A stretch of DNA of 64,000 bases from Tabrizicola soli (lineage in GTDB: Bacteria; Pseudomonadota; Alphaproteobacteria; Rhodobacterales; Rhodobacteraceae): assembly GCF_015999335.1 (NCBI RefSeq), contig NZ_JAEACP010000014.1, forward strand, positions 1-64,000. The letters run 5' to 3'. The notes under the pieces were generated by a model. The model did no database searches. It worked only from the letters and a program-made list of their open reading frames with translations, and was not told the DNA's origin. A program made the translations under genes and the position numbers. Shown here piece after piece: positions 7,752 through 20,240 of the stretch (its first letter is position 1; every line of letters starts with the position of its first letter).

Positions 7752-8660
7752 ATGGAGAATCTGCGCCGCCTGCTGCCCTCGATCAACAGCCTCGTCGTCT
7801 TCGAGGCGGCGGGGCGGCTTTCCAGTTTCACCGCCGCGGCGCGGGAGCTGCGCATGACCCAGGCGGCGGTCTCCTATGCCATCGCGCGGCTCGAGGATCA
7901 TCTGGGCGCCGCGCTGTTCCGGCGCGAGCATCGCCGCGTCCGGCTCAGCGAGGCGGGCGAACGCTTTCATGCCGATGTCACCATCGGCCTGTCGCATATC
8001 CAGCGCTCGGCGCAGAACCTGCGGGCGGTGGCGACGGGCGGCCATGTGACCCTGGCCTGCTCCACCGCCTTCGCGGCCTGGTGGATGGTGCCCCGCATGG
8101 CCCGGTTCCGCGCCGACCTGCCGCATATCGACCTGCGGATCCAGTCGGCCGACCGCGACCTCGACCTGGTGGGCGAGGGCATCCCGCTGGCGGTGCGCGG
8201 CGGCAATCCGGGCGACTGGCCGCAATACCAGGCCGAGCCGCTGGCCCCGGAAGAGATCTACCCCGTCTGCGCGGCGAGCTACCTGGCCGGGCGCACGCGC
8301 CCCGAAACCGCGGCAGATCTGCTGAGCCACCCGCTGATCCACCTGGAAGAACCCCATCGCTCGGCCGCGACCTGGCGCGACTGGTTCGCCGCCGTGGGGA
8401 TCGACGGGCGGCGGGTGCCCAAGGGCCTGCAGATCAACGATTACGTGCTGGTGATCCAGTCGGTCATGGCGGGCCAGGGCGTGGCGCTCGGCTGGCGGCA
8501 TCTGGTCGACGGGCTGGTGGACAGCGGCGTGCTGGTCCGGCTCACCGATCATGTGCTGGCCACGGGGATGCAGTTCCACGTCATCTGGCCGCGCGAGGTC
8601 GCCCTCAGCCGCCCCGCGCAAGAGGTGCGCGACTGGCTTCTCGCCCAGCCGGGGGCCTGA
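7752..8660 (+). CDS. LysR-family transcriptional regulator (GcvA-like)
   Basis: 302-residue LysR protein. The N-terminal winged HTH (about residues 8-66, LPSINSLVVFEAAGRLSSFT...MTQAAVSYAIARLEDHLG) is of the GcvA subgroup, followed by a periplasmic-binding-like effector domain. The start at 7752 follows the AT-rich 3' half of a dyad. It is divergent from the MttB-family methyltransferase, and LysR regulators normally control the divergent gene, so methylamine or betaine induction is the working hypothesis. The methyltransferase therefore has two candidate regulators of different families on its two sides, which is unusual for a single-gene locus. Confidence 0.9.
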   Translation: MENLRRLLPSINSLVVFEAAGRLSSFTAAARELRMTQAAVSYAIARLEDHLGAALFRREHRRVRLSEAGERFHADVTIGLSHIQRSAQNLRAVATGGHVTLACSTAFAAWWMVPRMARFRADLPHIDLRIQSADRDLDLVGEGIPLAVRGGNPGDWPQYQAEPLAPEEIYPVCAASYLAGRTRPETAADLLSHPLIHLEEPHRSAATWRDWFAAVGIDGRRVPKGLQINDYVLVIQSVMAGQGVALGWRHLVDGLVDSGVLVRLTDHVLATGMQFHVIWPREVALSRPAQEVRDWLLAQPGA

Positions 8661-8679
8661 TCCGGCAGCAGGGAAGCAT

Positions 8680-8765
8680 TGGTGCCCGCGGCCGGATTCG
8701 AACCGGCATGGCCTTGCAGCCGAGGGATTTTAAGTCCCCTGTGTCTACCGTTCCACCACGCGGGC
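8680..8765 (-). tRNA. tRNA-Leu (anticodon TAA)
   Basis: On the minus strand the gene starts GCCCGCG (8765-8759) and closes with CGCGGGC plus discriminator A and an encoded CCA (8682-8680). The anticodon arm has loop CTTAAAA, giving anticodon TAA that reads UUA. The long variable arm typical of class II tRNAs and the GGTTCGAATCC T-arm are present. Length is 86 bases including CCA. Confidence 0.95.
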
Positions 8766-8829
8766 CCCGTGGCGGCACCATACGGATTTCGCAACGCAAC
8801 GCCACAGCCTTCCTGCCGCCGAGGCCTCC

Positions 8830-8891
8830 CCTGTTCGACGTCGTCTCCTCCATGGCCCGCCCGGCGAGGAGTGACGAAGTCATCGACGAGC
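8830..8891. repeat. Dispersed imperfect-hairpin repeat, copy A
   Basis: A 29-base core at 8863-8891 (begins GGCGAGGAGTGACGAAGTC, ends CGACGAGC) recurs almost unchanged at 34408-34435 and 53440-53468. An upstream segment (8831-8850) is nearly its inverted complement, so the unit can fold into a long imperfect hairpin. It lies 13 bases beyond the 3' end of the PAS-LuxR gene and upstream of tRNA-Leu. It is non-coding. Confidence 0.75.
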
Positions 8892-8903
8892 AGTCATCCG
8901 CGA

Positions 8904-9452
8904 TCACTCCGCCGCGGGGGCCGCCAGCAACCGGCTCACCAGTTCGAAACTGTTCCTGACCTGCATCTTACGCACCATGTTCGCCCGGTGCACCTCGACC
9001 GTCCGGGGCGAGGATCCCAGGGCCAGCGCGATTTCCTTCGAGGTGAAGCCGTTCACCAGATAGCGCGCGATCCGCCGTTCCGTGGGCGTCAGCGCGCCCG
9101 CAGGCCCCTCGCCTTCCAGCGGACGATAGGTCCAGACCGCCAGGCGCTGCGGGTCCTCGGGGTCCAGCGCGGTGCCGCGCCCCTCCATCCAGACGACCTG
9201 CCCGTCCTTGCGCCGCATGAAGCGTTCGTCACGGTAGACCTCGGCCGCCTGCATCGCCTTGCGCGCCCGCTCCCCGATCACCTCATAATCGGTCGGGCCG
9301 GGATAGAGCATGCGGATCGACTGCCCCTCCAGTTCCTTGGGCGTCCAGCCGAACACCGCCTCGACCCGCAGGCTGGCGCGCAGGACCACCCGGTCCGCCA
9401 GGATCAGGGTGGCGTCCGGGGCATGGCGAAAGGCGAGTCGGTCGTAATCCAT
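8904..9452 (-). CDS. PAS-domain LuxR-family transcriptional regulator
   Basis: 182-residue cytoplasmic regulator with an N-terminal PAS fold (about residues 10-110, including the [16 protein letters not shown] segment). The C-terminal LuxR/NarL HTH ([43 protein letters not shown]) occupies about 125-180. There is no receiver domain, so it is not a classical response regulator; the PAS domain may sense a ligand or cofactor. It is divergent from scoAB, and three TACGTA-type repeats stand between the two starts. Control of the CoA-transferase operon and itself is inferred. The start at 9452 (MDYDRLAF) was preferred to a longer frame lacking similarity; the RBS is weak. Confidence 0.87.
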
Positions 9453-9462
9453 GGCGGGCGAT

Positions 9463-9491
9463 CTACGTAGGCTTCTACGTATTCTTACGGA
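9463..9491. promoter_or_regulatory. TACGTA repeat cluster, candidate operator of the PAS-LuxR regulator
   Basis: CTACGTAG (9463-9470), a second CTACGTA (9475-9481) and a diverged third TACGGA (9486-9491) are spaced about one helical turn apart, 12 and 10 bases core to core. The array starts 11 bases before the PAS-LuxR start codon and 80 bases before scoA. Confidence 0.5.
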
Positions 9492-9570
9492 TGGCAGGCC
9501 GGGATGCAATCTTTCACAGTCCGGTCCATCCCCGGGCCCCGACAGGCGGGTCCGGGCGGGGAGAACAAGG

Positions 9571-10275
9571 ATGAACAAGGTTTACCCAAGCGCCGCCGAG
9601 GCGCTGAACGGCGTGCTGCACGACGGCATGCTGATCGCCGCCGGGGGCTTCGGCCTTTGCGGCATCCCGGAACTGCTGATCGCGGCAATCCGCGACTCGG
9701 GCGTCAAGGGCCTCACCGTCGCCTCGAACAACGCGGGCGTCGACGGCTTCGGCCTCGGCGTCCTGCTGGAGACCCGGCAGGTCAAGAAGATGATCTCGTC
9801 CTATGTCGGCGAGAACGCGGAGTTCATGCGCCAGTATCTCTCGGGCGAGCTGGAGCTTGAATTCAACCCGCAGGGCACGCTGGCCGAGCGGATGCGGGCG
9901 GGCGGCGCGGGGATCCCCGGCTTCTACACCGCCACCGGCGTCGGCACGGTGATCGCCGAGGGCAAGGAACACCACGACTTCGACGGCAAGACCTATATCC
10001 TGGAGCGCGGCATCGTCGCCGACCTGTCGATCGTCAAGGCCTGGAAGGCGGACCCGAGCGGGAACCTCGTCTTCCGCAAGACCGCGCGCAACTTCAACGT
10101 CCCCGCCGCCACCTGCGGCAAGACCTGCGTCGTCGAGGTCGAGGAGATCGTGCCCTTGGGCAGCCTAGACCCCGACGCGATCCACCTGCCCGGAATCTAT
10201 GTCCACCGGATCGTCGCCGGACAGCACGAGAAGCGCATCGAACAGCGCACCACCCGCAAGAAGGAGGCCGTGTGA
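9571..10275 (+). CDS. scoA: 3-oxoacid CoA-transferase subunit A
   Basis: 234-residue alpha subunit of a two-subunit succinyl-CoA:3-ketoacid (acetoacetate) CoA-transferase, which activates acetoacetate for oxidation or PHB and ketone-body turnover. It shows the family I CoA-transferase signature near the start ([19 protein letters not shown]) and the Rossmann-like core. Start 9571 has a GGGGAG/AAGG purine stretch immediately upstream. It overlaps scoB by one base, giving translational coupling. The upstream PAS-LuxR gene is the likely regulator. Whether the CoA donor is succinyl-CoA or acetyl-CoA cannot be told with certainty from sequence; similarity favours SCOT. Confidence 0.92.
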
Positions 10276-10916
10276 TGAGCGAGGCAAAAGGCTGGGACCG
10301 CAACGGCATGGCCGCCCGCGCGGCGCAGGAACTGCGCGACGGGATGTATGTCAACCTCGGCATCGGCATCCCGACGCTGGTGGCGAACTACATCCCCCAG
10401 GGCGTGAACGTGACCCTGCAATCGGAAAACGGCATGCTGGGCATGGGTCCCTTCCCCTGGGAGGGCGAGGAAGACCCCGACCTGATCAACGCCGGCAAGC
10501 AGACCATCACCGAACTGCCGCAGACCGCCTATTTCGACAGCGCCACCTCCTTCGCGATGATCCGCGGCGGCAAGATCGCCATGGCGATCCTCGGCGCGAT
10601 GGAGGTGGCCGAGAACGGCGACCTCGCGAACTGGATGATCCCGGGCAAGCTGGTCAAGGGCATGGGCGGGGCGATGGACCTGGTGGCCGGCGTCGGCCGC
10701 GTGGTCGTGGTGATGGACCACACCTCGAAGCACGGCGAGTCTAAGGTGCTGAAGGCCTGCACCCTGCCGCTCACCGGCAAGGGCGTGGTCGACCGGATCA
10801 TCACCAACCTCGGCGTCCTCGACGTGGGCCACAAGGGCCTGCACATCGTCGAACTCGCCCCCGGCATGACGGAGGCGGAACTCCGCGCCGCGACGGAGGC
10901 GACCATTGTCGACTGA
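10275..10916 (+). CDS. scoB: 3-oxoacid CoA-transferase subunit B
   Basis: 213-residue beta subunit of the CoA-transferase. The catalytic glutamate that forms the CoA-thioester intermediate is in SENGMLGMG (Glu51). Initiation is set by a perfect AAGGAGG at 10261-10267 inside the end of scoA, seven bases before ATG 10275, whose first base is the last base of the scoA stop. It forms the heterotetramer with ScoA. The operon appears to end here: what follows is a damaged acetyltransferase gene and then foreign DNA. Confidence 0.93.
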
Positions 10917-10917
10917 C

Positions 10918-11081
10918 CGTCAGGTCACGCGCGAACACGGGGCGACCAAGGGTCGCTTCGTGATCCGCTGCGGGCGGAAGAGGCCGAGCTGACCTATTCC
11001 GTCACCATCCCCGGCCTGATCATCGCCGACCACACCGGCGTGCCCGACAGCTTCCGCGGCACCGGCGCGGGCCTCGCGCTG
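10918..11081 (+). pseudogene. GNAT N-acetyltransferase remnant, frameshifted and 3'-truncated
   Basis: Directly after scoB one frame reads RQVTREHGATKGRFVIRC. A second frame then reads EEAELTYSVTIPGLIIADHT followed by GVPDSFRGTGAGLAL. Together these match the start and acetyl-CoA binding loop (GTGAGLAL) of the small GNAT proteins that often begin 'MTEVTRE'. The start codon is lost, the two halves are in different frames, and the homology stops abruptly after GLAL at about 11081, where peptidase-coding DNA of different character begins. The missing 3' half was not found on the far side of the island. It is non-functional as it stands. Confidence 0.75.
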
Positions 11082-11097
11082 CCCCCTCGAGAGCGCC

Positions 11098-11838
11098 GTG
11101 CCGGTCGACCAGATTGCCTCGGAACTAGGAATCGCCGAGATCCGCCGGGAGGTGCTGGACGGCTGTGAAGGGATCTTGCTGACAGATCGTGTCCGCAGCA
11201 TCGGAAAGATCCTCGTCAATTCGGCCCGAGGGCCCCAAGCGGCGCGCTTTGGGATTGCCCACGAGTTGGGGCATTTCCTCCTCGAACGGCATGTGCTCGG
11301 TCTGGGAGATACGTTTACCTGCAGCCTCAAGGACATGCGCGAGACGCGCACCGCCCGGTTGCATGAACGCCAGGAAGTCGAAGCAAATGCCTTTGCCATC
11401 GGTCTTCTCGTGCCTGACGACCAGCTGGCGCCCTTTTTGAACGAGCATCCAGACATCAGTTCGGTGGCCGGGTTGCGAACGAAGCTCGACATCAGCCTGG
11501 AAGCCGCAACACGGTGCCTGGTCGACCGCCATGATGAGCCAATTGCTGCCGTTTGGACCCTGAACGGGAGGATCCGTTATGTCGTCCGCGGTAAGACCTT
11601 TCCGTGGATCGCGCGGAGTGCAGGGGATAGCGTTTCTTCGCTTAGCCGAACGGCCAGCGCCTTGGCGAAAGGTAAGTCAGGCATCACCGGAATGCACGAG
11701 GTTGCTGCCGCAGCTTGGACAACGGCCGACATTCCAGAACTTTACGAGCAGGTCCGAGTTGGCCGCGACGGCCATGCCCTGACGCTCCTGTGGGCTTCAT
11801 TGCCTGGTGCGGATGGAGCGGACCGGGACGAAGACTGA
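11098..11838 (+). CDS. ImmA/IrrE-type metallopeptidase, possibly 5'-truncated
   Basis: 246-residue protein with the zinc-peptidase HEXXH motif (HELGHFLLERH, about residue 57-67) of the ImmA/IrrE family. Members cleave or displace repressors of mobile elements or of stress genes. The usual domain start (PVDxxxIA followed by the strand leading to IAHELGH) is present from residue 2, but no XRE-type partner or convincing RBS precedes it. The frame is open only from 11020, and the GTG at 11098 is simply the first plausible start. The left junction with the broken GNAT gene falls about 15 bases upstream, so a short N-terminal piece and a partner gene were probably lost. Function is inferred from fold only. 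Confidence 0.75.
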   Translation: MPVDQIASELGIAEIRREVLDGCEGILLTDRVRSIGKILVNSARGPQAARFGIAHELGHFLLERHVLGLGDTFTCSLKDMRETRTARLHERQEVEANAFAIGLLVPDDQLAPFLNEHPDISSVAGLRTKLDISLEAATRCLVDRHDEPIAAVWTLNGRIRYVVRGKTFPWIARSAGDSVSSLSRTASALAKGKSGITGMHEVAAAAWTTADIPELYEQVRVGRDGHALTLLWASLPGADGADRDED

Positions 11839-12018
11839 GGCAACGTGCGACGGATTAGCCGTCAACTGAACCCAAGACCTGACGATCAGACTTCTGTGAC
11901 AAACCAGTGGACTTCGCCCGCCGGTGGAGCGTTGCTGTGACCCATGCCCGGCACCGTCCGGGCTCGGTTCGGTACCGGGGCGCGGCATCCCGCCCGCCCG
12001 GTTGGACCGGAGCCGATC

Positions 12019-12594
12019 ATGACCAAAGGAACGACAACCTGCCGCCCTTCCGCCCAGGCGGCAGAACCCAAGACGCACGGCGATACCGGCGGGGCCAAGG
12101 CGAAGCCCCCGCGCGGCAAGGCGGCGACCGTCAACCAGACGAGCACCGCATCGTCAGGAGAGACCGGGGCCCCGATCCCGGCCGCAGCGCCCATCACGAC
12201 ACCAAAGCCACAGCGCCAGACCAAGGCCGCGCTCCTGCGGGCGCGGCTCGCCGCACCGGGGGGTGTGTCCCTCGCCGCCCTGATCGCCGCAACCGGCTGG
12301 CAGGCCCATACCCTGCGCGCGGCCCTGAGTGGGCTGCGCAAGGAAGGGCTGAACCTCACCCGGCGCCGCGATGGCGAGGACACCATCTATGCGATCGCGC
12401 CGGGCGACGCAGAAGCGGCCTGCACCGTCGACACCGTAGACGGCACCGCTGATGGCGAAGCAGCGCCCGGCGCGCCCGACCCAAGCGGGGCGGGCGGCGC
12501 AACCGGTACGGACGGCGATGCCGCCATCAGCGAGGACAGCCCTGCCCCCTCGGCGGCGTCCCCCGCATCCCAGTTGACCGGACGGGTTGCATGA
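12019..12594 (+). CDS. DUF3489 domain-containing protein
   Basis: 191-residue protein of unknown function with a winged-helix-like DUF3489 core at about residues 70-130 (KAALLRARLAAPGGVSLAAL, then TGWQAHTLRAALSGLRKEGL). Low-complexity Ala/Gly/Thr-rich arms lie on both sides. The start at 12019 (MTKGTT) has GGAG six bases upstream; an earlier ATG at 11944 lacks support. It overlaps the next gene in an ATGA junction. The trio DUF3489-DUF2924-serine recombinase is a recurring cassette in alphaproteobacteria, so this is probably a DNA-binding accessory of the recombinase; that role is an inference. Confidence 0.82.
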   Translation: MTKGTTTCRPSAQAAEPKTHGDTGGAKAKPPRGKAATVNQTSTASSGETGAPIPAAAPITTPKPQRQTKAALLRARLAAPGGVSLAALIAATGWQAHTLRAALSGLRKEGLNLTRRRDGEDTIYAIAPGDAEAACTVDTVDGTADGEAAPGAPDPSGAGGATGTDGDAAISEDSPAPSAASPASQLTGRVA

Positions 12595-13085
12595 CCATGC
12601 TCGCCGATCTCGAGGCGATGGACCGGGCGGGACTTGCCCGTCTCTGGAAGGACCTGATTGGCGGATCCGTCCCGGCCAGCATGAGCCAGCCGATGCAGCG
12701 CCGCTTCCTCGCCTTCGAGCTGCAGGCAAAGCTGGAGGGCGGCTTATCCGCCGCCCTCCGCGCCCGGCTGGACCGCATCGCCGCGGGCGAGGAGCGCAAA
12801 GCGTCTCCCACGCTGCAACCCGGTGCCCGCCTCCTGCGCGAATGGAACGGGACCACGCATGTCGTCGATGTTCTGGCCGATGGCTTTCTCTGGAACGGCA
12901 CGTCCCATCGCTCGCTCTCCGCCATCGCCCGCGCCATCACCGGCGCGCGCTGGTCGGGACCGCGCTTCTTCGGGCTGGTCAGAGCGGTCGATGATGGCGG
13001 AGACAGATCCGCGAGGGGCAAGGCACAAAAACGGACGACGCGGCGCCTTGTGCCCAGCAAGTCGAAGCGGGAGCGCGCGGCATGA
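12591..13085 (+). CDS. DUF2924 domain-containing protein
   Basis: 164-residue protein with the two recognisable halves of DUF2924. The first is an N-terminal helical part (LEAMDRAGLARLWKDLIGG, then MQRRFLAFELQAKLEGG). The second is a C-terminal DNA-associated-looking module (GARLLREWNGTTHVVDVLAD, then HRSLSAIARAITGARWSGPR), followed by a basic tail. It is translationally coupled at both ends (ATGA with DUF3489 upstream and with the recombinase downstream). The family is almost always next to this recombinase type. The module resembles HTH-containing recombinase accessories; a biochemical role is not known. Confidence 0.85.
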   Translation: MTMLADLEAMDRAGLARLWKDLIGGSVPASMSQPMQRRFLAFELQAKLEGGLSAALRARLDRIAAGEERKASPTLQPGARLLREWNGTTHVVDVLADGFLWNGTSHRSLSAIARAITGARWSGPRFFGLVRAVDDGGDRSARGKAQKRTTRRLVPSKSKRERAA

Positions 13086-14743
13086 CGCAGAAGCCGGTGA
13101 TCCGTTGCGCGATCTATACCCGGAAGTCGAGCGACGAAGGTCTGGACCAGGCCTTCAACTCGCTCGATGCGCAGCACGAGGCCTGTGCCGCCTATATCGC
13201 CAGCCAGCGCCACGAGGGCTGGAAGCTCATCCCCGACCGCTTCGATGATGGCGGGCTCTCGGGCGGCACGCTTGACCGTCCTGCCCTGCAGCGGCTCCTC
13301 GCCGAGATTGATGCTGGCCGCATTGGCATGGTGGTCGTCTACAAGATCGACCGCCTGACCCGGTCACTCGTCGACTTCGGTCGTCTCGTCGAGCGGCTCG
13401 ACGCCAGGGGCTGCTCCTTCGTCTCGGTGACCCAGGCCTTCAACACCGCAACCTCGATGGGACGCCTCACCCTGAACGTGCTTCTGTCCTTCGCCCAGTT
13501 TGAACGTGAAGTCACCGCCGAGCGCATCCGCGACAAGATCGCGGCCTCGAAGAAGAAGGGGCTCTGGATGGGCGGTGCCCTGCCCCTCGGCTACGACCGC
13601 CACCCCGATCCCCAGCGCCGGGAACTGGTCGTCAATCCGGTCGAGGCCGAAGTGGTGCAGCAGCTCTTCCGGCTCTACGCCGACCTCGGCAACCTGCGGC
13701 TCGTGGAGATCGAGGCTGAGCGGCGCGGGCTTCGTCCAAAGACACTGGTCTCGCGGACGGGTCGCGTCCGGGGCGGCGCTCCCTTTGCCCGCGGTCAGTT
13801 GCATCACCTCCTGTCCAACCCGGTCTACATCGGGCGCATCCGGCACAAGGATCAGACCTATCCGGGCCAGCATCCGGCGATCATCGAGGACGGGCTCTGG
13901 CAGGAGGTTCAGGACAAACTCATCGCCGCCTCGGCGCGCCCGCGGGGACGGAATGAGGCGACCACCGATCCGCGGATCCTGACCGGCAAGCTTCGCGACG
14001 AGGCCGGCGACCTCCTGACTCCGACCCACACCCTGAAGGCTGGTCGGCGTTTTGCCTACTACGTCTCGAACCGCCTGATCGCGGGCGGCAAGGACCCCTC
14101 CGGCTGGCGCCTGCCTGCCGCGGCGCTGGAGAGCACGTTCCGGCAGGTCGTGGTCGCTCATCTGCGGCGCGCCGCCACGGGCCATGCACTCCTGGCTGAG
14201 CCGGAAGCGAGTGGTGCCGCCGACCTGATGCGTCGTGCGACTGAACTGGCGGATCAGGTTGAACGTGAGCCGGCGCATCTCGGCAGCCTCGTCGCGTCCG
14301 GATCACTCGCTCCGGGCAGGCTGCAGCTTGAGCTTGTTCCAGGCGTGATCGCCGCGGCGCTGGAGGTGTCGGTTGCAGCCCTGTCCGACAGCCTCCTGCG
14401 GGTCAGCTGCGCCTTTGCCCTCCGCCGTCGCGGCGCCGAGACCCGGATCATCGCGGGCGAGACCATGCCCGCACCCGACGAGGTCCTGCAGCGCACGCTC
14501 GCGGAGGCGCATCTCTGGGCACGGGCCTTGCGCCGGGGCACCTCGCTCACCGAGATCGCCCGCAAGACCGGACGGTCAGAGCCCTATATCCGCACCAGGA
14601 TTCCGCTGGCCTTCCTCGCGCCAAAGCTGCAGGCCGCAATCCTCGACGGGCGGCAGTCGGTCCACCTCTCGGTGGCCCAGTTCATCCGCGAGGACGTTCC
14701 CCTGGACTGGACCGAGCAGGCCCGTCTCTTCGAGATCACCTGA
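13082..14743 (+). CDS. Large serine recombinase
   Basis: 553-residue serine integrase-type recombinase. The N-terminal resolvase catalytic domain (1-150) carries the nucleophile in YTRKS (Ser16), the GGLSGGTLDRPALQRLL segment and KIDRLTRS. The central recombinase domain spans about 160-290. The region that holds a Cys4 zinc ribbon in phage integrases is present in outline but has no cysteines (LLTPTHTLKAGRRFAYYVSN). The C-terminal ~200 residues include an HTH-like EIARKTGRSEPYIRTRIPLA. Catalytic residues are intact, so it may be active. It is the third gene of the coupled DUF3489-DUF2924 cassette and is followed by an AT-rich repeat tail that could hold its crossover sites. Confidence 0.92.
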   Translation: MTQKPVIRCAIYTRKSSDEGLDQAFNSLDAQHEACAAYIASQRHEGWKLIPDRFDDGGLSGGTLDRPALQRLLAEIDAGRIGMVVVYKIDRLTRSLVDFGRLVERLDARGCSFVSVTQAFNTATSMGRLTLNVLLSFAQFEREVTAERIRDKIAASKKKGLWMGGALPLGYDRHPDPQRRELVVNPVEAEVVQQLFRLYADLGNLRLVEIEAERRGLRPKTLVSRTGRVRGGAPFARGQLHHLLSNPVYIGRIRHKDQTYPGQHPAIIEDGLWQEVQDKLIAASARPRGRNEATTDPRILTGKLRDEAGDLLTPTHTLKAGRRFAYYVSNRLIAGGKDPSGWRLPAAALESTFRQVVVAHLRRAATGHALLAEPEASGAADLMRRATELADQVEREPAHLGSLVASGSLAPGRLQLELVPGVIAAALEVSVAALSDSLLRVSCAFALRRRGAETRIIAGETMPAPDEVLQRTLAEAHLWARALRRGTSLTEIARKTGRSEPYIRTRIPLAFLAPKLQAAILDGRQSVHLSVAQFIREDVPLDWTEQARLFEIT

Positions 14744-14820
14744 CGCAGGAAGGATGTTCAGAGCATCTCTGAATGCGCTCAAAACACGGCGTCAGCGCGT
14801 CAGAACCCGGAAACACAAGC

Positions 14821-15070
14821 TTCCCTGTTCTTCCCAATTCTTTCCCTGTTCGGCCGAATTTTATTCCCTGATCTACTGACTTAATTTCCCTGTTCTTGCG
14901 GAGCAGGGAATTCGCTCGTAACCCACGGAAAAGACGCGATGTTTCCGGGGCGAAAATCCCGGAAACAGCCCTGGTAAATCGAAATTCCCTGTTAATTCCC
15001 TGTTCTTCGCGCGCGGGCAAACCGAACGGGACGCGCGGCCGGGAGAGACGCGGCGCACATTTGCAGGGAA
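14821..15070. repeat. TTCCCTGTTC-type repeat cluster downstream of the recombinase
   Basis: The 430-base gap between the recombinase and tRNA-Ser has no gene. TTCCCTGTTC occurs exactly at 14821-14830, 14842-14851, 14886-14895 and 14996-15005. Near copies are at 14864-14873 (TTCCCTGATC) and 14985-14994 (TTCCCTGTTA). Inverted partial copies (GCAGGGAA) are at 14903 and 15063. Base composition is much more AT-rich than the surroundings. Candidate roles are recombinase binding sites or the end of the mobile unit. Confidence 0.7.
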
Positions 15071-15175
15071 GGCAGATGGGTCGGAGCGTCTCCGTCGAGG
15101 TCCCGGCAGCGTAACCCCCGGAAACACGGGGAAATACCGACGAGATCGGAAAAATCGTGCAATATCAACGGGTTA

Positions 15176-15265
15176 TGGCGGACAGTGAGGGATTCGAACC
15201 CTCGAGACGGTTCCCCGCCTACACACTTTCCAGGCGTGCGCCTTCGACCACTCGGCCAACTGTCC
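15176..15265 (-). tRNA. tRNA-Ser (anticodon GGA)
   Basis: The minus-strand gene begins GGACAGT (15265-15259) and ends ACTGTCC plus discriminator G and encoded CCA (15178-15176). Anticodon loop CTGGAAA gives GGA, reading UCC/UCU. The long variable arm and GGTTCGAATCC T-arm are present. Length is 90 bases with CCA. It marks the right border of the foreign segment. Confidence 0.95.
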
Positions 15266-15313
15266 GTGGCGCGGTGCTTAGCCTGCCGGACGCGGGGGTT
15301 CAAGCACTTCCTG

Positions 15314-16033
15314 TCACTCGGAAAGATGGATCGTGACGCGACGGTTCTGGCGGCCCTTGTTCTCGATCTTGCCGATCTCGATCCGGCCGATCTCGCCGGT
15401 GCGGGCGACATGGGTGCCGCCGCAGGGCTGCAGGTCGACCTGATCCGCCCCCTGGCCGATCCGCACCAGCCGCACCCTGCCCTGGCCGGCCGGCGGACGG
15501 ACGGACATGGTCTTGACGAGGCCGGGGTTCGCGGCAAGCTCCTCGTCCGTGATCCAGTCCTCGGTCACCGGCAGGTCACGGTCGACGAGGCGGTTCAGGA
15601 CGCCCGCGATGGCGGCGATGTCGCCCGGCGGCTCGGGCATGTCGAAGTCGAGCCGGCCGCGATCCTGGGCGATGGCGCCGCCGGTCACCGGCAGGGGGAT
15701 CACCACCGACAGAAGGTGCAGCGCGGTATGGATGCGCATGTGGCGGTGGCGGCGCGACCAGTCGACCAGTTGCCGCGCGGGGGTGCCCACCGGGGGCATG
15801 GCCATGGGCTCGGCCGGGACCAGAGCCACCTGGCCGCCTTCAACCTTCAGCGTGGTGGCGATGGGCATGCGCACCCCTCCCCATTCCAGCATACCGCTGT
15901 CGCCGGGCTGGCCGCCACCCGTGGGGTAGAAGACCGTCCGGTCGACCACCAGCCCGCCCTCGGCCGTATGGCCGATGATCCGGCACTCGGCCGCCGTCTG
16001 GTAGGCATCCGCCCTGAACATCAGTTCCGTCAT
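15314..16033 (-). CDS. alaX: Alanyl-tRNA editing protein AlaX
   Basis: 239-residue free-standing homologue of the AlaRS editing domain, which hydrolyses Ser-tRNA(Ala) (and Gly-tRNA(Ala)) in trans. The zinc-binding motifs are visible: HTALH (about residue 98-102) and CGGTH (about 207-211), together with the FYPTGGGQPGD signature near residue 40. The start at 16033 has AAGGGGGAAG in front and overlaps the stop of the upstream channel gene in an ATGA junction, so it is translationally coupled. Operon order is cysK, mscS-type channel, alaX. Confidence 0.92.
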   Translation of the reverse strand: MTELMFRADAYQTAAECRIIGHTAEGGLVVDRTVFYPTGGGQPGDSGMLEWGGVRMPIATTLKVEGGQVALVPAEPMAMPPVGTPARQLVDWSRRHRHMRIHTALHLLSVVIPLPVTGGAIAQDRGRLDFDMPEPPGDIAAIAGVLNRLVDRDLPVTEDWITDEELAANPGLVKTMSVRPPAGQGRVRLVRIGQGADQVDLQPCGGTHVARTGEIGRIEIGKIENKGRQNRRVTIHLSE

Positions 16034-18441
16034 CGCTCTTCCCCCTTGTCGTTGCCGGCCTGCCCCTTCCGCCCGGCCCGCTTCGCCAGCGGCGCCCTTT
16101 CCTCCTGCACCAGATCGGCCAGCGCCAGCACGGTCTGGGCGGTCTTCACCGGATCGGGCTCGGCCGGCGGGGCCGGGGGCGGGACGATATGGATGCCCTC
16201 GGCCTTGAACCGCTCGAGGATGCGGTGGTTCATGTCGCTGCGCACGGAAATCGAGAAGTTCACGTCGCGCAGGATCACCCGGATCTCGAAATTCAGCTGG
16301 TTGGTGGTATAGCCCATCAGCACGACCATCGGCGGCGGCTTCAGGATGGCAAGCGGCTGCGCCTCGGCGATCTCCTGCAGGATGCGCGCGACCTGGCGCG
16401 TGTCCGATCCCATCGCGACCGAGACCGGCACGATCAGGCGACCGGAGAGGTTGAAGCGGGTCCAGTTCGTCACCCGGCCGGTGATCAGGTCGGCGTTCGG
16501 CACGATCACGTCGTTGCGGTCGAAGGTCTCGATCCGGGTCGAGCGGACGCTGATCGCCCGCACCCTGCCCTGCACGCCGCCGACCTCGATCCAGTCGCCC
16601 TCGCTGACCGGCCGCTCGACGAGAAGGATGATGCCCGAGATGAAGTTCGACACGATCTGCTGCAAGCCGAAACCGATGCCGACCGAGAGCGCGCCGGCGA
16701 CGATGGCGAGGCCGGAAAGGTCGATCCCGGCGGCGTTGATCGCCACCAGCGCGGCTAGGAAGATGCCGACATAGCCGATCCCCGAGACCAGCGCGGTCTG
16801 GCCGCCCTGCTCCATCCGGGTCTTGGGCAGGATCGTGGTGCGCAGCGCGCCCTGAAAGAGCCGCGTCAGCATGTAGCCGATCACGAAGACCCCGGCAAAG
16901 ATCATGAAATCGGTGGGCGAGATCCGCGTCTCGCCCATCTGGAAGCCCTCGGTGAAACGGGTCCAGAGTTCCGTCAGGTCGGACAGGCGCGCACCCCAGA
17001 TCAGGGCGAAGACCGGCAGTGCGGCCAGCGTCATCGTGAAACCCGCCAGCACCGGCACCAGCGTGTCGGCCGCCTGTTCGTCCGCCTTGACGATCAGCGC
17101 CCAGACATCGCCGATCAGCCGCTGCAGGATGAAGAGCAGCGTCACCAGCCCCAGGGTCAGGATCGCCGGATAGATCAGCGCCGTCGCGGCCTGGACATAG
17201 CCCAGCCCCGCCAGCACCGGCCCCGCGACCCCCACCACCGTCAGGCCGCGCGCCAGGACGAGAAGCAGCCGCAGCACATAGCTCTTGTCCTCGGCGTCCC
17301 GCGCCTGGTGCAGCAGCCGTCCGGTCCGCATCAGGATAAGCCCGCCGGTCAGCAGGATCGGGAAGGACATGACCGCCGTCGTCGCATCGGAATAGGCCTG
17401 CGCATCCATCGCAGCCGAGCGCAGCCTCTCGACCGCGACGACCAGGCCCATGAGCACGGCAAGGAAGCGGCCCTCGGCCCGGCGTTCGGGCGGCAGCGGC
17501 AGGACCGCGCCCTCGTGCTGGACCCGCGGGAAGGCCCGTGCGCCCAGCCAGGCGGCAGCAAAGATCACGAAGCCCATCAAGGGCAGCGCCCGGACCACCT
17601 GCGCCCCGATCTCGCCTGTCATCCCGGCTGCGATCAGCGCGGCCGCGAGCGCCACCATGCCCAAAGTCGGCAGGATGACCTCGCCCAGCGAGGCCAGAAG
17701 CGACCAGACCTTGCGCCCCCGGACCGAGGCGCCCTGCTGCAGCCGTTCGGTGAACCGCTCTACCCAACGCCGGACATAGACCACCAGCGCCAGCGCCACG
17801 CCCAGAAGCGCAAGGATCAGTGGCAGACTGTCGAACAGTTCCGCCCGTGCCTTGCGGTCGGTCCAGACCATCGCGGCCTCGTCCCAAAGCCGCAGCACCG
17901 TGTCGGAAAAGCCCACCGCCGCCTCGGGCCAGTTGCCAGGGTTCAGCGGCGAGGGCCAGAGTTGCAAAAGCTCGTCCGCCTGCCGTTCGCGCAGTGTCCG
18001 GTCGATCTCGCGGATCAGGCCGTCGGCGCGGCGATAGCCTTCCTCGGCGGCGATGCCGGGGGCCTGCAGCTTGACCAGCTGCTGCGCCAGCTCCTGCCGG
18101 CGGCGGCTGATCTCGTCGGCCTCGGTCTCGCCTTCGGCCGGTGCGGGACCCAGGGCCGCGATCTGCTCGCGCACGGTGGCGATGCGGGCCGAATTGGCGT
18201 TCTGCGCCGTCAAGAGCGCCGTTCGCCACTGCGCCAACTGCGTCCGGATCTCCTCCAGCCGGTCCGATGAGGTGCGGCGTTCGGCGATCTCGGCCTCCGC
18301 CCGGCTGGCCATGCGCCGCCAGTCCTCATAGTCAAGCTGGGCCGCCGCCTCCGCCCCCGGCTGGGCGACCATCTCCTGCGCCGCCAGCGGTCCGGCCAGC
18401 AGGACCAGGACCAGCGCCAGCCATCGCAGGAGCAGGCTCAT
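16030..18441 (-). CDS. MscS-family mechanosensitive ion channel with DUF3772 domain
   Basis: 803-residue inner-membrane channel. A signal peptide (MSLLLRWLALVLVLLAGPLAAQ) is followed by a periplasmic coiled-coil domain of the DUF3772 type (about 30-200). About ten hydrophobic segments then lead into the MscS pore and beta domain (from about 600: GLAIVAGALSVGIGFGLQQI, then the FISGIILLVERP signature). A Pro-rich cytoplasmic tail ends the protein. It resembles the large MscK/YjeP type that protects against hypo-osmotic shock. It overlaps cysK upstream and alaX downstream by ATGA junctions, so all three are translated as a coupled unit. Confidence 0.92.
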   Translation of the reverse strand: MSLLLRWLALVLVLLAGPLAAQEMVAQPGAEAAAQLDYEDWRRMASRAEAEIAERRTSSDRLEEIRTQLAQWRTALLTAQNANSARIATVREQIAALGPAPAEGETEADEISRRRQELAQQLVKLQAPGIAAEEGYRRADGLIREIDRTLRERQADELLQLWPSPLNPGNWPEAAVGFSDTVLRLWDEAAMVWTDRKARAELFDSLPLILALLGVALALVVYVRRWVERFTERLQQGASVRGRKVWSLLASLGEVILPTLGMVALAAALIAAGMTGEIGAQVVRALPLMGFVIFAAAWLGARAFPRVQHEGAVLPLPPERRAEGRFLAVLMGLVVAVERLRSAAMDAQAYSDATTAVMSFPILLTGGLILMRTGRLLHQARDAEDKSYVLRLLLVLARGLTVVGVAGPVLAGLGYVQAATALIYPAILTLGLVTLLFILQRLIGDVWALIVKADEQAADTLVPVLAGFTMTLAALPVFALIWGARLSDLTELWTRFTEGFQMGETRISPTDFMIFAGVFVIGYMLTRLFQGALRTTILPKTRMEQGGQTALVSGIGYVGIFLAALVAINAAGIDLSGLAIVAGALSVGIGFGLQQIVSNFISGIILLVERPVSEGDWIEVGGVQGRVRAISVRSTRIETFDRNDVIVPNADLITGRVTNWTRFNLSGRLIVPVSVAMGSDTRQVARILQEIAEAQPLAILKPPPMVVLMGYTTNQLNFEIRVILRDVNFSISVRSDMNHRILERFKAEGIHIVPPPAPPAEPDPVKTAQTVLALADLVQEERAPLAKRAGRKGQAGNDKGEER

Positions 18442-19472
18442 GCGTCTTCGTAGACGGTCGGGATCGCCCGGCCCGGCCGGTCCAGCCATTCGGGGACGGG
18501 CAGGCCCTTCTCGCGCAGGAAGGTGGGGTTGTAGATCTTGGACTGGTAGCGGCTGCCATAGTCGCACAGGATCGTGACGATGGTCTTGCCCGGCCCCATC
18601 TCGCGCGCCATGCGGATCGCCCCGGCGATGTTGATGCCGGTCGAGCCGCCCATGCACAGCCCCTCATCGGTCAAGAGGTCGAAGATGATCGGCAGCGCCT
18701 CGGCATCCGGAATCCGATAGCTGAAATCGGGGGTGAAACCTTCCAGGTTGGCGGTGATCCGGCCCTGGCCGATGCCCTCGGTGATCGAGGTGCCGGGGCT
18801 TTCCAGCTTGCCAGAGGTGTAGAAGCTGTGCAGCGCCGCGCCCTCGGGATCGGCAAGGCCGATCTTCACTCCCTTGGGCTGCAGCGCCATGCCCACCCCG
18901 GCCAGCGTCCCGCCCGAGCCCACGGCGCAGATGAACCCGTCCACCTTGCCGCCGGTCTCTTCCCAGATCTCGGGCCCCGTGGTCTCGATATGCGACTGCC
19001 GGTTGGCCACGTTGTCGAACTGGTTGGCCCAGATCGCGCCGTTCGGTTCCGTCTTGGCCAGGGCTTCGGCCAGGCGGCCCGAATAGCGGACATAGTTGTT
19101 CGGGTTGCGATAGGGCGCGGCCGGAACCTGCACCAGCTCGGCCCCCGCCAGCCGCAGCATGTCCTTCTTTTCCTGGCTCTGCGTCTCGGGGATGACGATC
19201 ACGGTTCGGAAGCCCATGCTTGCGCCCACCAGCGCCAGACCGATCCCGGTATTCCCCGCCGTCCCCTCGACGATGGTGCCACCCGGCTTGAGCTGGCCCT
19301 TCGCGATGGCGTCGCGGATGATGTAGAGCGCGGCCCGGTCCTTGACCGACTGGCCGGGATTCATGAACTCCGCCTTGCCCAGGATGGTGCAGCCCGTGAT
19401 CTCGGAGGCCTTCTTCAGCTTCAGAAGCGGCGTGTTCCCGATCGTGTCGGCCAGGTCCTGATGAATACGCAT
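18438..19472 (-). CDS. cysK: Cysteine synthase A
   Basis: 344-residue PLP enzyme (O-acetylserine sulfhydrylase) making cysteine from O-acetylserine and sulfide. The PLP lysine is in SVKDRAA (Lys44). The substrate loop EGTAGNTGIGLA, the PLP-phosphate loop GSGGT and the C-terminal GSTGINIAGA are present. It is about 30 residues longer than E. coli CysK at the C-terminus, as is common in the CysK1 subgroup of alphaproteobacteria. It is the first gene of the coupled cysK-channel-alaX unit. In Rhodobacter sphaeroides cysK was isolated with trgAB as a tellurite-resistance locus; here trgAB lies 5.5 kb away. Confidence 0.93.
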   Translation of the reverse strand: MRIHQDLADTIGNTPLLKLKKASEITGCTILGKAEFMNPGQSVKDRAALYIIRDAIAKGQLKPGGTIVEGTAGNTGIGLALVGASMGFRTVIVIPETQSQEKKDMLRLAGAELVQVPAAPYRNPNNYVRYSGRLAEALAKTEPNGAIWANQFDNVANRQSHIETTGPEIWEETGGKVDGFICAVGSGGTLAGVGMALQPKGVKIGLADPEGAALHSFYTSGKLESPGTSITEGIGQGRITANLEGFTPDFSYRIPDAEALPIIFDLLTDEGLCMGGSTGINIAGAIRMAREMGPGKTIVTILCDYGSRYQSKIYNPTFLREKGLPVPEWLDRPGRAIPTVYEDA

Positions 19473-19523
19473 GGGGTCGGTCCTTCCTTTGTCCCCAAGG
19501 TGTATGTGTGTCGGGGGCCAAAC

Positions 19524-20240
19524 TCAAGCCGGGGCAACGGGACGCGCGGCAAAGAGCTGCCGCACCCCCGGCACCATCACCACGAAAATGATCAGGATCG
19601 ACACCAGGCACCAGATCGCCGGGGCCTCGGCCGGATTGTCGGTCAGGTATCCGGCCGCAATCGGCCCGACAAGCGCATGGAACAGCGCGAACCGCCACAG
19701 GCCGTAGAAGAGCGGCAGCACGAAGACCGCCAGCACATAGCCGGGAAATCCGAAATTGGTGCCAAGGATCCGGTCCGGCAGGCCGAAGATGTCGCTGTAG
19801 TCCAGCGTCCAGCCCAGATGCCAGTTGCCCGAGATCGTGCACAGCACCTCACCGCACAGGGGCTGGCCCGGCATGCAGCGGCCCAGTCCCGCCCAGGGCA
19901 GCATCTGCACCATGACCAGGGCCGAGCCCAGCGTCGCCAGGCGCATCACCCGTTGCCGAAGCCGGGGAGCGGCGTCCGGACGGAACCAGGCCAGCATGAA
20001 GGCATTGATGACGATGGGCTGCAGGGCGATGTGCAACAACGACAGCGCCGTCATCACCCGGTTCGCCGGAGTGCCGCACTGGTCGATGACCAGGTAGCCA
20101 CCCAGCTGCAAGCCTTCCATCGCCGCGAAGTAGAGGCAGGTCAGCGGCACCGCCGCCGGATCGCCCCGCCGGGCCGAAAACCCGGCCGCGGCGATCCCCG
20201 CGACCGTGAATCCGGCGGTGACCTCGATCCCCCAGCACAT
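19524..20240 (-). CDS. DUF5765-like integral membrane protein
   Basis: 238-residue protein with about seven hydrophobic helices and no signal peptide beyond the first helix. It begins MCWGIEVTAG, and the 'MCW' start with conserved Cys, Trp and Tyr residues resembles the DUF5765 family of Rhodobacterales. Cysteines cluster in the loop CMPGQPLCGEVLC near residue 122-134 and could form disulfides or bind metal. RBS AAGGGGG precedes start 20240. It lies 50 bases upstream of cysK on the same strand, but cotranscription is uncertain. Function is unknown. Confidence 0.72.
   Translation of the reverse strand: MCWGIEVTAGFTVAGIAAAGFSARRGDPAAVPLTCLYFAAMEGLQLGGYLVIDQCGTPANRVMTALSLLHIALQPIVINAFMLAWFRPDAAPRLRQRVMRLATLGSALVMVQMLPWAGLGRCMPGQPLCGEVLCTISGNWHLGWTLDYSDIFGLPDRILGTNFGFPGYVLAVFVLPLFYGLWRFALFHALVGPIAAGYLTDNPAEAPAIWCLVSILIIFVVMVPGVRQLFAARPVAPA

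Follow-up and report, generated by a model that had tools for sequence, protein, structure and literature searches.

A DUF3489-DUF2924-serine recombinase cassette of Tabrizicola soli as a probable integration module for elements at the 3′ ends of tRNA-Ser genes

Results and discussion

The cassette and its proteins

The window analysed here comprises the first 64,000 nucleotides of contig NZ_JAEACP010000014.1 of Tabrizicola soli. It contains a cassette of three overlapping genes, encoding a DUF3489 protein, a DUF2924 protein and a large serine recombinase, to which an earlier, sequence-only reading had assigned no purpose. Comparison with relatives replaces that label with a function. The cassette is probably (at roughly 0.87) an integration module. 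The integrative elements to which it belongs, whether prophage-derived or cargo islands, would be inserted by the serine recombinase, usually at the 3′ end of tRNA-Ser genes of any isoacceptor. The features of the locus are as follows.

12019..12594, + strand: DUF3489 protein, winged-helix-like (Pfam PF11994, 3.8e-16)
12591..13085, + strand: DUF2924 protein, helical N-terminus and RAMA-like C-terminus (PF11149, 2.9e-38; structure model)
13082..14743, + strand: large serine recombinase with a fused C-terminal helical/helix-turn-helix (HTH)-like module (residues about 445-552)
14744..15175, no strand: non-coding proximal end of the element, 8 copies of TTCCCTG/CAGGGAA; a similar region lies between recombinase stop and tRNA in relatives
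15176..15182, − strand: presumed crossover core TCCGCCA (tRNA 3′ end; attL), from sequence comparison
15176..15265, − strand: intact tRNA-Ser(GGA), the presumed target gene (ARAGORN); present in relatives without the cassette and the clustered repeats

The genes lie where the sequence-only reading had placed them, joined by ATGA overlaps at 12591-12594 (DUF3489/DUF2924) and 13082-13085 (DUF2924/recombinase). A 4-base overlap is common to 51 of 79 DUF2924/recombinase pairs from an 80-locus genome set (starts chosen automatically) and is therefore not accidental. Translational coupling is thus plausible, but the overlap does not force the stoichiometric translation that had been claimed. The 3′ end of tRNA-Ser(GGA) faces the recombinase, 432 bp downstream of its stop, and the element adjoins the 3′ end of an intact tRNA gene, as it does in relatives and as is expected of a tDNA island. 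The intervening TTCCCTG/CAGGGAA array (14821-15070) holds eight copies per 432 bp, against a mean maximum of 2.4 in shuffled sequences, none of 300 reaching 8. No clustered TTCCCTG repeat was found in 20 cassette-free tRNA-Ser(gga) stretches of relatives, two of which end at the tRNA; scattered single copies do occur.

The recombinase matches Resolvase (PF00239, 1.5e-37) and Recombinase (PF07508, 7.8e-13) in Pfam, as well as phrog_95 (1.2e-87) and phrog_14161 (4.6e-17). Its catalytic residues are kept, as had been proposed: Y12, R14, S16, D90 and R91 of the catalytic domain are invariant across 39 recombinase sequences, and S16 is, from what is known of the family, presumably the nucleophile. 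The proposed absence of zinc-ribbon cysteines also holds, the protein having 4 cysteines and no CxxC...CxxC, a motif found in 0 of 79 recombinase relatives (70 of them longer than 400 residues). A Pfam scan gave no match of the ribbon domain PF13408 to the window recombinase. Lacking the cysteines, the recombinase of the Acidithiobacillus phage AcaML1 matches this domain at 29.3 bits (cut-off 25.3) and two other relatives do so below the cut-off (24.2 and 16.8). In the structure model (mean pLDDT 68.9) residues 367-463, the stretch examined for a coiled-coil motif, lie mostly below 50; Foldseek relates the fold to Bxb1 (E 1.4e-16) and A118 (1e-10), with low TM-scores of 0.2-0.4.

The DUF3489 protein also resembles PaaX (2.5e-4) and MarR_2 (0.077), both below the Pfam cut-off. 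By profile and structure model the N-terminal half of the DUF2924 protein is helical and the C-terminal half RAMA-like (PF18755, 3.7e-5, below the cut-off of that family). It weakly matches CcrM (E 0.011), and a partial match between RAMA and DUF2924 is given in the accessible part of a Wolbachia study (PMC11342252). No solved-structure relative was found for DUF2924, either by profile or by fold at E ≤ 0.001, nor by sequence for the C-terminal module of the recombinase. Two candidate assignments were rejected. For anti-phage defence as the function of the cassette itself, PADLOC returned nothing for DUF2924 or the recombinase and 0.052 for DUF3489; for membership of the SCC/Ccr group (CcrA/CcrB/CcrC equivalog), the CcrB score was 132 bits against a cut-off of 900.

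Two cassette types in relatives

Relatives, labelled here by genome (G), contig (C) and locus (L), carry two kinds of cassette. Type I, that of the window, consists of DUF3489, DUF2924 and a recombinase with the C-terminal module fused; type II consists of DUF2924, a recombinase of ~440 residues and a separate C-terminal open reading frame (ORF). The module being fused in one type and separate in the other suggests a joint action of the two parts. MAFFT did not align the C-terminal ORFs correctly, and they were left out of folding.

Where a tRNA is within reach, the distance between a type I cassette and the tRNA-Ser gene (gga, gct or tga) facing it is about 375-580 bp, with the exception of G029:C13, at 2.9 kb with a mini-element between, and G008:C74, where 20 kb are inserted. 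The fetched stretches of five type I loci (L010, L011, L073, L074, L115) contained no tRNA-Ser. Type II cassettes mostly lie 1-11 kb from tRNA-Ser in the same orientation, two loci of the 80-locus set being at 0.3-0.4 kb; no tRNA-Ser was found in the fetched type II stretches L009, L069, L075 and L118, nor in the cut locus L116. The type I proximal end, mostly about 375-440 bp long, often has a TTCCCTG array; L071 and L072 lack it, and in L077, L010 and L011 it is weak or falls short of significance.

That both DUF proteins always accompany the recombinase, as had been claimed, stands for one of them. In a set of 61 genomes, DUF2924 adjoins a recombinase match in 38 of 43 hits (listed matches compared by hand, one being a fragment), the remaining five being one at a contig edge and 4 partial or weak. 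In the 80-locus set, with which at least four contigs are apparently shared, a recombinase follows DUF2924 in 79/80 loci, the last of which ends at the contig end, and IMG/VR viral contigs have the two side by side in 80/80. DUF3489, in contrast, is adjacent to DUF2924 in 14/48 hits and apart in 34/48, which the sequence-only reading had itself named as grounds against it; for 10 of these 34, a DUF2924 gene is found about 10-27 kb off along the contig (by hand). Six DUF2924 genes and seven DUF3489 genes are present in the host genome, just three of the latter inside cassettes. The four stand-alone copies are at G000:C27, C24, C30 and C22:30420, that on C22 being 17 kb from a type II cassette.

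tRNA-Ser genes lie downstream of the cassettes

The tRNA genes around cassettes were counted in two sets picked on sequence similarity rather than neighbourhood, the genome set being the best 80 of 570 DUF2924 loci ranked by similarity to a type II sequence. In 501 kb downstream of the 80 genome loci there are 26 tRNA genes: 22 tRNA-Ser, 2 tRNA-Glu and 1 tRNA-Gly, which face the cassette, and 1 tRNA-Arg, which does not. The 530 kb upstream contain a single tRNA gene (Met) and no tRNA-Ser. The viral contigs gave 7 tRNA genes in 114 kb downstream, all tRNA-Ser and 6 of them facing, and 0 in 410 kb upstream. Of the 57 genome loci whose downstream sequence reached 8 kb or more (or gave a hit), 21 had a facing tRNA-Ser. 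Nine more loci of this set have an attachment junction instead of a tRNA, seven recognised by proximal profile and two by distal half (L153, L172).

When profiles of the element ends were applied to the DNA after tRNA genes, 31 of 74 tRNA-Ser genes and 0 of 15 other tRNAs were positive; 23 sequences had served to build the profiles, and sampling had centred on cassettes and tRNA-Ser genes. Among the tRNA-Ser genes with no end-profile match, L067, L068, L079 and L081 still face a cassette. In the host genome, the cassette on C13 faces tRNA-Ser(tga) (C13:42365-42454). Host loci C3 and C35 showed no tRNA-Ser within the fetched sequence, and there a type II-like distal half is joined to what is apparently the locus's own proximal end.

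Attachment sites and delimited elements

The comparison of filled and empty sites suggested by the sequence-only reading does yield attachment sites. Between filled and other tRNA-Ser(cga) loci, homology stops no more than 8 bases from CCA in 9 of 11 genomes, and the remaining two, G002 and G014, have a type II end of their own. Of the occupied tRNA-Ser genes, 43/45 end in TCCGCCA. A T-arm pattern search for distal ends gave mostly chance hits, only L078 looking real; half-site profiles then worked. Those for the proximal end found junctions that lack a tRNA, and a distal half precedes each. The type II distal half reads GGAGAAGGTTGGAnnTCAGGCCCATCCCCTCCG, directly followed by CCA, or is close to this, at 20 loci (18/20 end TCCG before CCA). 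It is succeeded by a type II proximal end in 12 of the 20 (by profile), by a type I-like end in L010 and L011 and by other DNA in six. The type I distal half, GGAGACnGGTTCGCAnTCGTCTGnnAGCACCG directly followed by CCA, was seen in two cases (L074, L206), with L121 differing. In L070 and L078 the distal half is an almost perfect tRNA T-arm plus acceptor end. The rebuilt type II attP shows no clear palindrome (best 13 of 30 positions). From these alignments the crossover appears to be confined to about TCCGCCA.

Taking the first distal half after the tRNA as the end of the first element, a type I element of 12.4 kb (G030:C136, 1277-13662), type II elements of 65 kb (G020:C5) and 33 kb (G022:C6) and an element of 37.7 kb in host contig C13 were delimited. 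Tandem stacks contain mixed types. A 2.5-kb element at L070:4849-7385 (G029:C13) has both attachment halves, a NOV_C gene (2.3e-23) and no recombinase, and is possibly a non-autonomous satellite. In L062/L063 (G008:C74), 20 kb of inserted DNA separate tRNA-Ser(gga) from an older type I element. About 15 bases of the tRNA 3′ end are repeated at the junction of this insert, which probably entered at this tRNA through an integrase of another kind.

Range of target genes

Recombinases 98.7% identical sit at tRNA-Ser(gga) and tRNA-Ser(tga), and the nearest relative has the same target gene in 12 of 39 loci, against 8.7 in shuffles (p 0.19; 41 loci with known target were entered, of which 39 had a neighbour). 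Such indifference to the isoacceptor fits a crossover in the last bases of the tRNA that leaves each host tRNA whole. At three loci, L171, L183 and L186 (one titled Acetobacteraceae, another Roseomonas and the third Neoroseomonas), the gene faced by the cassette is tRNA-Glu or tRNA-Gly; their downstream DNA is alike by eye.

Twenty serine recombinases that lack DUF2924, hand-picked from the same genome set, were meant as a negative control, which failed, since tRNA genes are met there too. Nine of them (L228, L229, L230, L231, L232, L236, L237, L240, L243) overlap, at or near the 3′ end of the recombinase gene, the antisense strand of a tRNA gene (Thr ×3, Arg ×2, Met ×2, Ser, Gln), so the use of tDNA by serine recombinases is wider than the DUF2924 family. 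In L241 a tRNA-Met lies ~0.1 kb away, and in L225 and L239 the tRNA is upstream instead. The sample includes two short ORFs (292 and 311 aa), a probable remnant of the family (L244) and at least three loci (L234, L235, L238) with at most ~120 bp of downstream sequence.

The window copy and its surroundings

Two further features mark the left edge of the element in the window. The truncated peptidase gene among them had gone unmentioned in the sequence-only reading, as had the tRNA-Ser gene and the TTCCCTG repeats.

10920..11092, + strand: disrupted GCN5-type acetyltransferase gene on the chromosomal side of the truncation (PF14542, 8.4e-06, below the cut-off)
11093..11838, + strand: N-terminally truncated CapP/ImmA-like metallopeptidase, forming the left edge of what survives of the element (PADLOC capP, 2.7e-40)

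The PF14542 match, at 10980-11090, spans profile positions 13-45 of 80 only. DNA homology with G008:C74 covers 11093-15190 (79.6% identity) and ends within the peptidase gene. Past the equivalent of 11093, G008:C74 continues with the peptidase N-terminus, an HTH-like ORF (L063:5642-5971) and a ParB/methylase-like ORF (L063:6122-7435), named by eye. The end of homology at 11093 and the broken acetyltransferase gene together indicate that the window element is truncated. Judged by this alignment, the window copy is a remnant whose distal part was lost at 11092/11093, and it is probably immobile on its own. No distal half-site was found in the window by T-arm pattern (8000-20000) or by the type II profile. 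The complete peptidase of G008:C74 and its adjoining HTH-like ORF resemble, by eye, a phage repressor/protease pair.

Cargo

Cargo was scanned in 31 cassette-to-tRNA or cassette-to-junction intervals, two of which gave none of the 95 ORFs of at least 150 residues. PADLOC returned type I methyltransferase models (up to 8), type I restriction (6) and specificity (6), and Pfam returned N6_Mtase (6), HSDR_N (6), N6_N4_Mtase (5), Methylase_S (4), DNA_methylase (3) and NOV_C (3). Therefore, the slot between cassette and tRNA often bears restriction-modification genes. The G030 element has metabolic cargo (FAD-binding, short-chain dehydrogenase, solute-binding and ABC transporter genes).

Mechanism and alternative explanations

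Location, orientation, half-sites, tandem junctions and indifference to the isoacceptor are shown by comparison of sequences. The earlier view of a site-specific recombination module with accessory DNA-binding-like proteins is borne out. In the mechanism we propose, the serine recombinase would link element and tRNA-Ser gene, at the 3′ end of the latter, by a crossover inside TCCGCCA, and the host tRNA would therefore stay complete and any isoacceptor be usable. The recombinase gene would be left facing the tRNA across the non-coding end in type I, and across this end plus a cargo slot in type II. The other end of the element would carry a half-site resembling the tRNA 3′ end, so that the tRNA could receive a second element, with the first displaced outward. 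We infer that the cassette proteins carry out catalysis and that the crossover falls at these exact bases. DUF2924 would act as a stoichiometric DNA-binding partner; accessory functions in DNA binding or control would fall to DUF3489 and the C-terminal module, and the TTCCCTG array would be a binding site for these proteins.

Several observations weigh against an integration module directed to tRNA-Ser. In the genome set 36/57 loci have no facing tRNA-Ser within 8 kb, and junctions or other tRNAs account for some, not all, of these. The DNA after 43 of 74 sampled tRNA-Ser genes fits none of the three end profiles, and the likeness of the distal half to a T-arm is clear only in L070 and L078. 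On the viral contig L270 (at 5103) a type I-like proximal end is joined, at TTCCG directly followed by CCA, to a site other than tRNA-Ser; its partner has the appearance of the 5′ part of a tRNA-Leu gene on the other strand and is possibly a secondary attachment site. The DUF2924-less recombinases at tRNA genes mean, therefore, that tDNA targeting alone proves no role for DUF2924. Finally, no excision or circular form was observed.

It is a serious possibility, if well short of an even chance, that the recombinase alone integrates at tRNA-Ser and that DUF2924 and DUF3489 are regulators (a repressor or directionality factor) with no part in target recognition. DUF3489 is winged-helix-like and often encoded elsewhere (the 10/34 stand-alone copies ~10-27 kb from DUF2924), and recombinases that lack DUF2924 reach tRNA genes unaided; yet DUF2924 is almost inseparable from its recombinase and overlaps it (51/79), which would be odd for a factor that is off during integration. 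Another reading, in which DUF2924 is a directionality factor made together with the recombinase and the module mainly excises, would suit the overlapping genes and the DNA-binding-like RAMA domain. We consider it unlikely, as constant co-expression would destabilise integrated copies, and these, many of them in tandem, are common.

The hypothesis that other (tyrosine) integrases insert islands at tRNA hot spots, the cassette being a passenger or an inversion system, draws on the many kinds of DNA found downstream of tRNA-Ser loci, which are hot spots, and on the 20-kb G008:C74 insert between tRNA and cassette with its ~15-base copy of the tRNA 3′ end. It appears highly improbable, given that the type of proximal end goes with the type of recombinase, the facing is near constant and the distal halves recur across many genomes (the elements were not searched for other integrases). 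There is likewise very little to be expected of the window copy as a still active small mobile element: its three genes and tRNA side are intact, but the homology ends at 11093 inside the peptidase gene, beside the broken acetyltransferase gene, and no distal half-site was found.

An extension of the integration-module reading is a multi-subunit integrase whose RAMA-type DUF2924 subunit would take over target reading from the zinc ribbon and recognise GANTC in the T-arm of attB, a motif mostly missing from the distal attP half. The weak match of DUF2924 to CcrM is part of its basis. GANTC occurs in the last 32 nt of 44/45 occupied tRNA-Ser genes versus 3/20 type II distal halves, and we take it to be the methylation site of CcrM, which presumably links to the cell cycle. 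If DUF2924 did read GANTC, target choice and direction would be tied to host cell-cycle methylation. However, the GANTC-bearing T-arm motif is common to tRNAs generally; this makes the proposal a lead only, and we hold it to be improbable.

On the reading of the cassette as an integration module, two uncharacterised Pfam families, DUF3489 and DUF2924, acquire a definite context together with sites on which they can be tested. In these bacteria, tRNA-Ser loci would be stacking sites at which elements swap restriction-modification and other cargo. Moreover, a short, widely conserved target could be a landing site for genome engineering in Alphaproteobacteria.

Comparison with known systems

Elements of this family share with tDNA islands in the Islander sense that they abut the 3′ end of an intact tRNA, and differ in having a serine rather than a tyrosine recombinase. 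As to the tRNA fragment at the far end of such islands, relatives have a distal half that resembles a tRNA end; in the window, where the left end is lost, none was found. The Islander paper is confined to the tyrosine family, and in a 2015 survey serine-type recombinases were not known to use tRNA genes. The A118, Bxb1 and phiC31 integrases have the resolvase and recombinase domains in common with the window recombinase, which, unlike them, has no zinc ligands, an extra C-terminal module and a DUF2924 partner.

The claim that the system is undescribed does not hold entirely, as annotated relatives exist in phages AcaML1 and WO; the open literature, largely at the level of titles and the starts of abstracts and outside subscription journals and the TIGER database, gave no recognised description of a tRNA-Ser DUF2924-recombinase family. 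In AcaML1 the order is gp4-gp3-gp2-gp1, with a DUF2924-like gp4 (53.6% over 34% of the query), a recombinase 'large subunit' gp3 (48.8% over 67%) and a 'small subunit' gp2 that takes the position of the type II C-terminal ORF; as in the window, DUF2924 is immediately upstream of the recombinase. In the available part of PMC3826726 (2013), its attB is given, with 10-bp repeats, as 'srrA', which we read as ssrA (tmRNA), and its record has CCACCATTTA at both ends. AcaML1 differs in its tmRNA target, its split module and the lack of an annotated DUF3489 beside it. The recombinase of Wolbachia phage WO is 31-32% identical over 98-99% and again adjacent to DUF2924, and its attB, according to the portion of PMC9203015 consulted, is a protein gene or repeats (magnesium chelatase gene, VNTR-105), unlike the tRNA-Ser cassettes.

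In Dehalococcoides, the CcrB-like serine recombinase DsiB targets ssrA and forms tandem islands, as described in the accessible text of PMC3146451. From the same partial source, these islands resemble those described here in their tandem arrangement and in the use of a serine recombinase at a tRNA-like gene, in its 3′ part. They differ in that they insert in the T-loop of tmRNA, leave a 20-bp repeat and have a second serine recombinase, DsiA, as the partner; that text makes no mention of DUF2924. AcaML1 (at tmRNA), phage WO and the Dehalococcoides ssrA islands are thus precedents for the present module, and serine recombinases that overlap tRNA genes also occur beyond the DUF2924 family.

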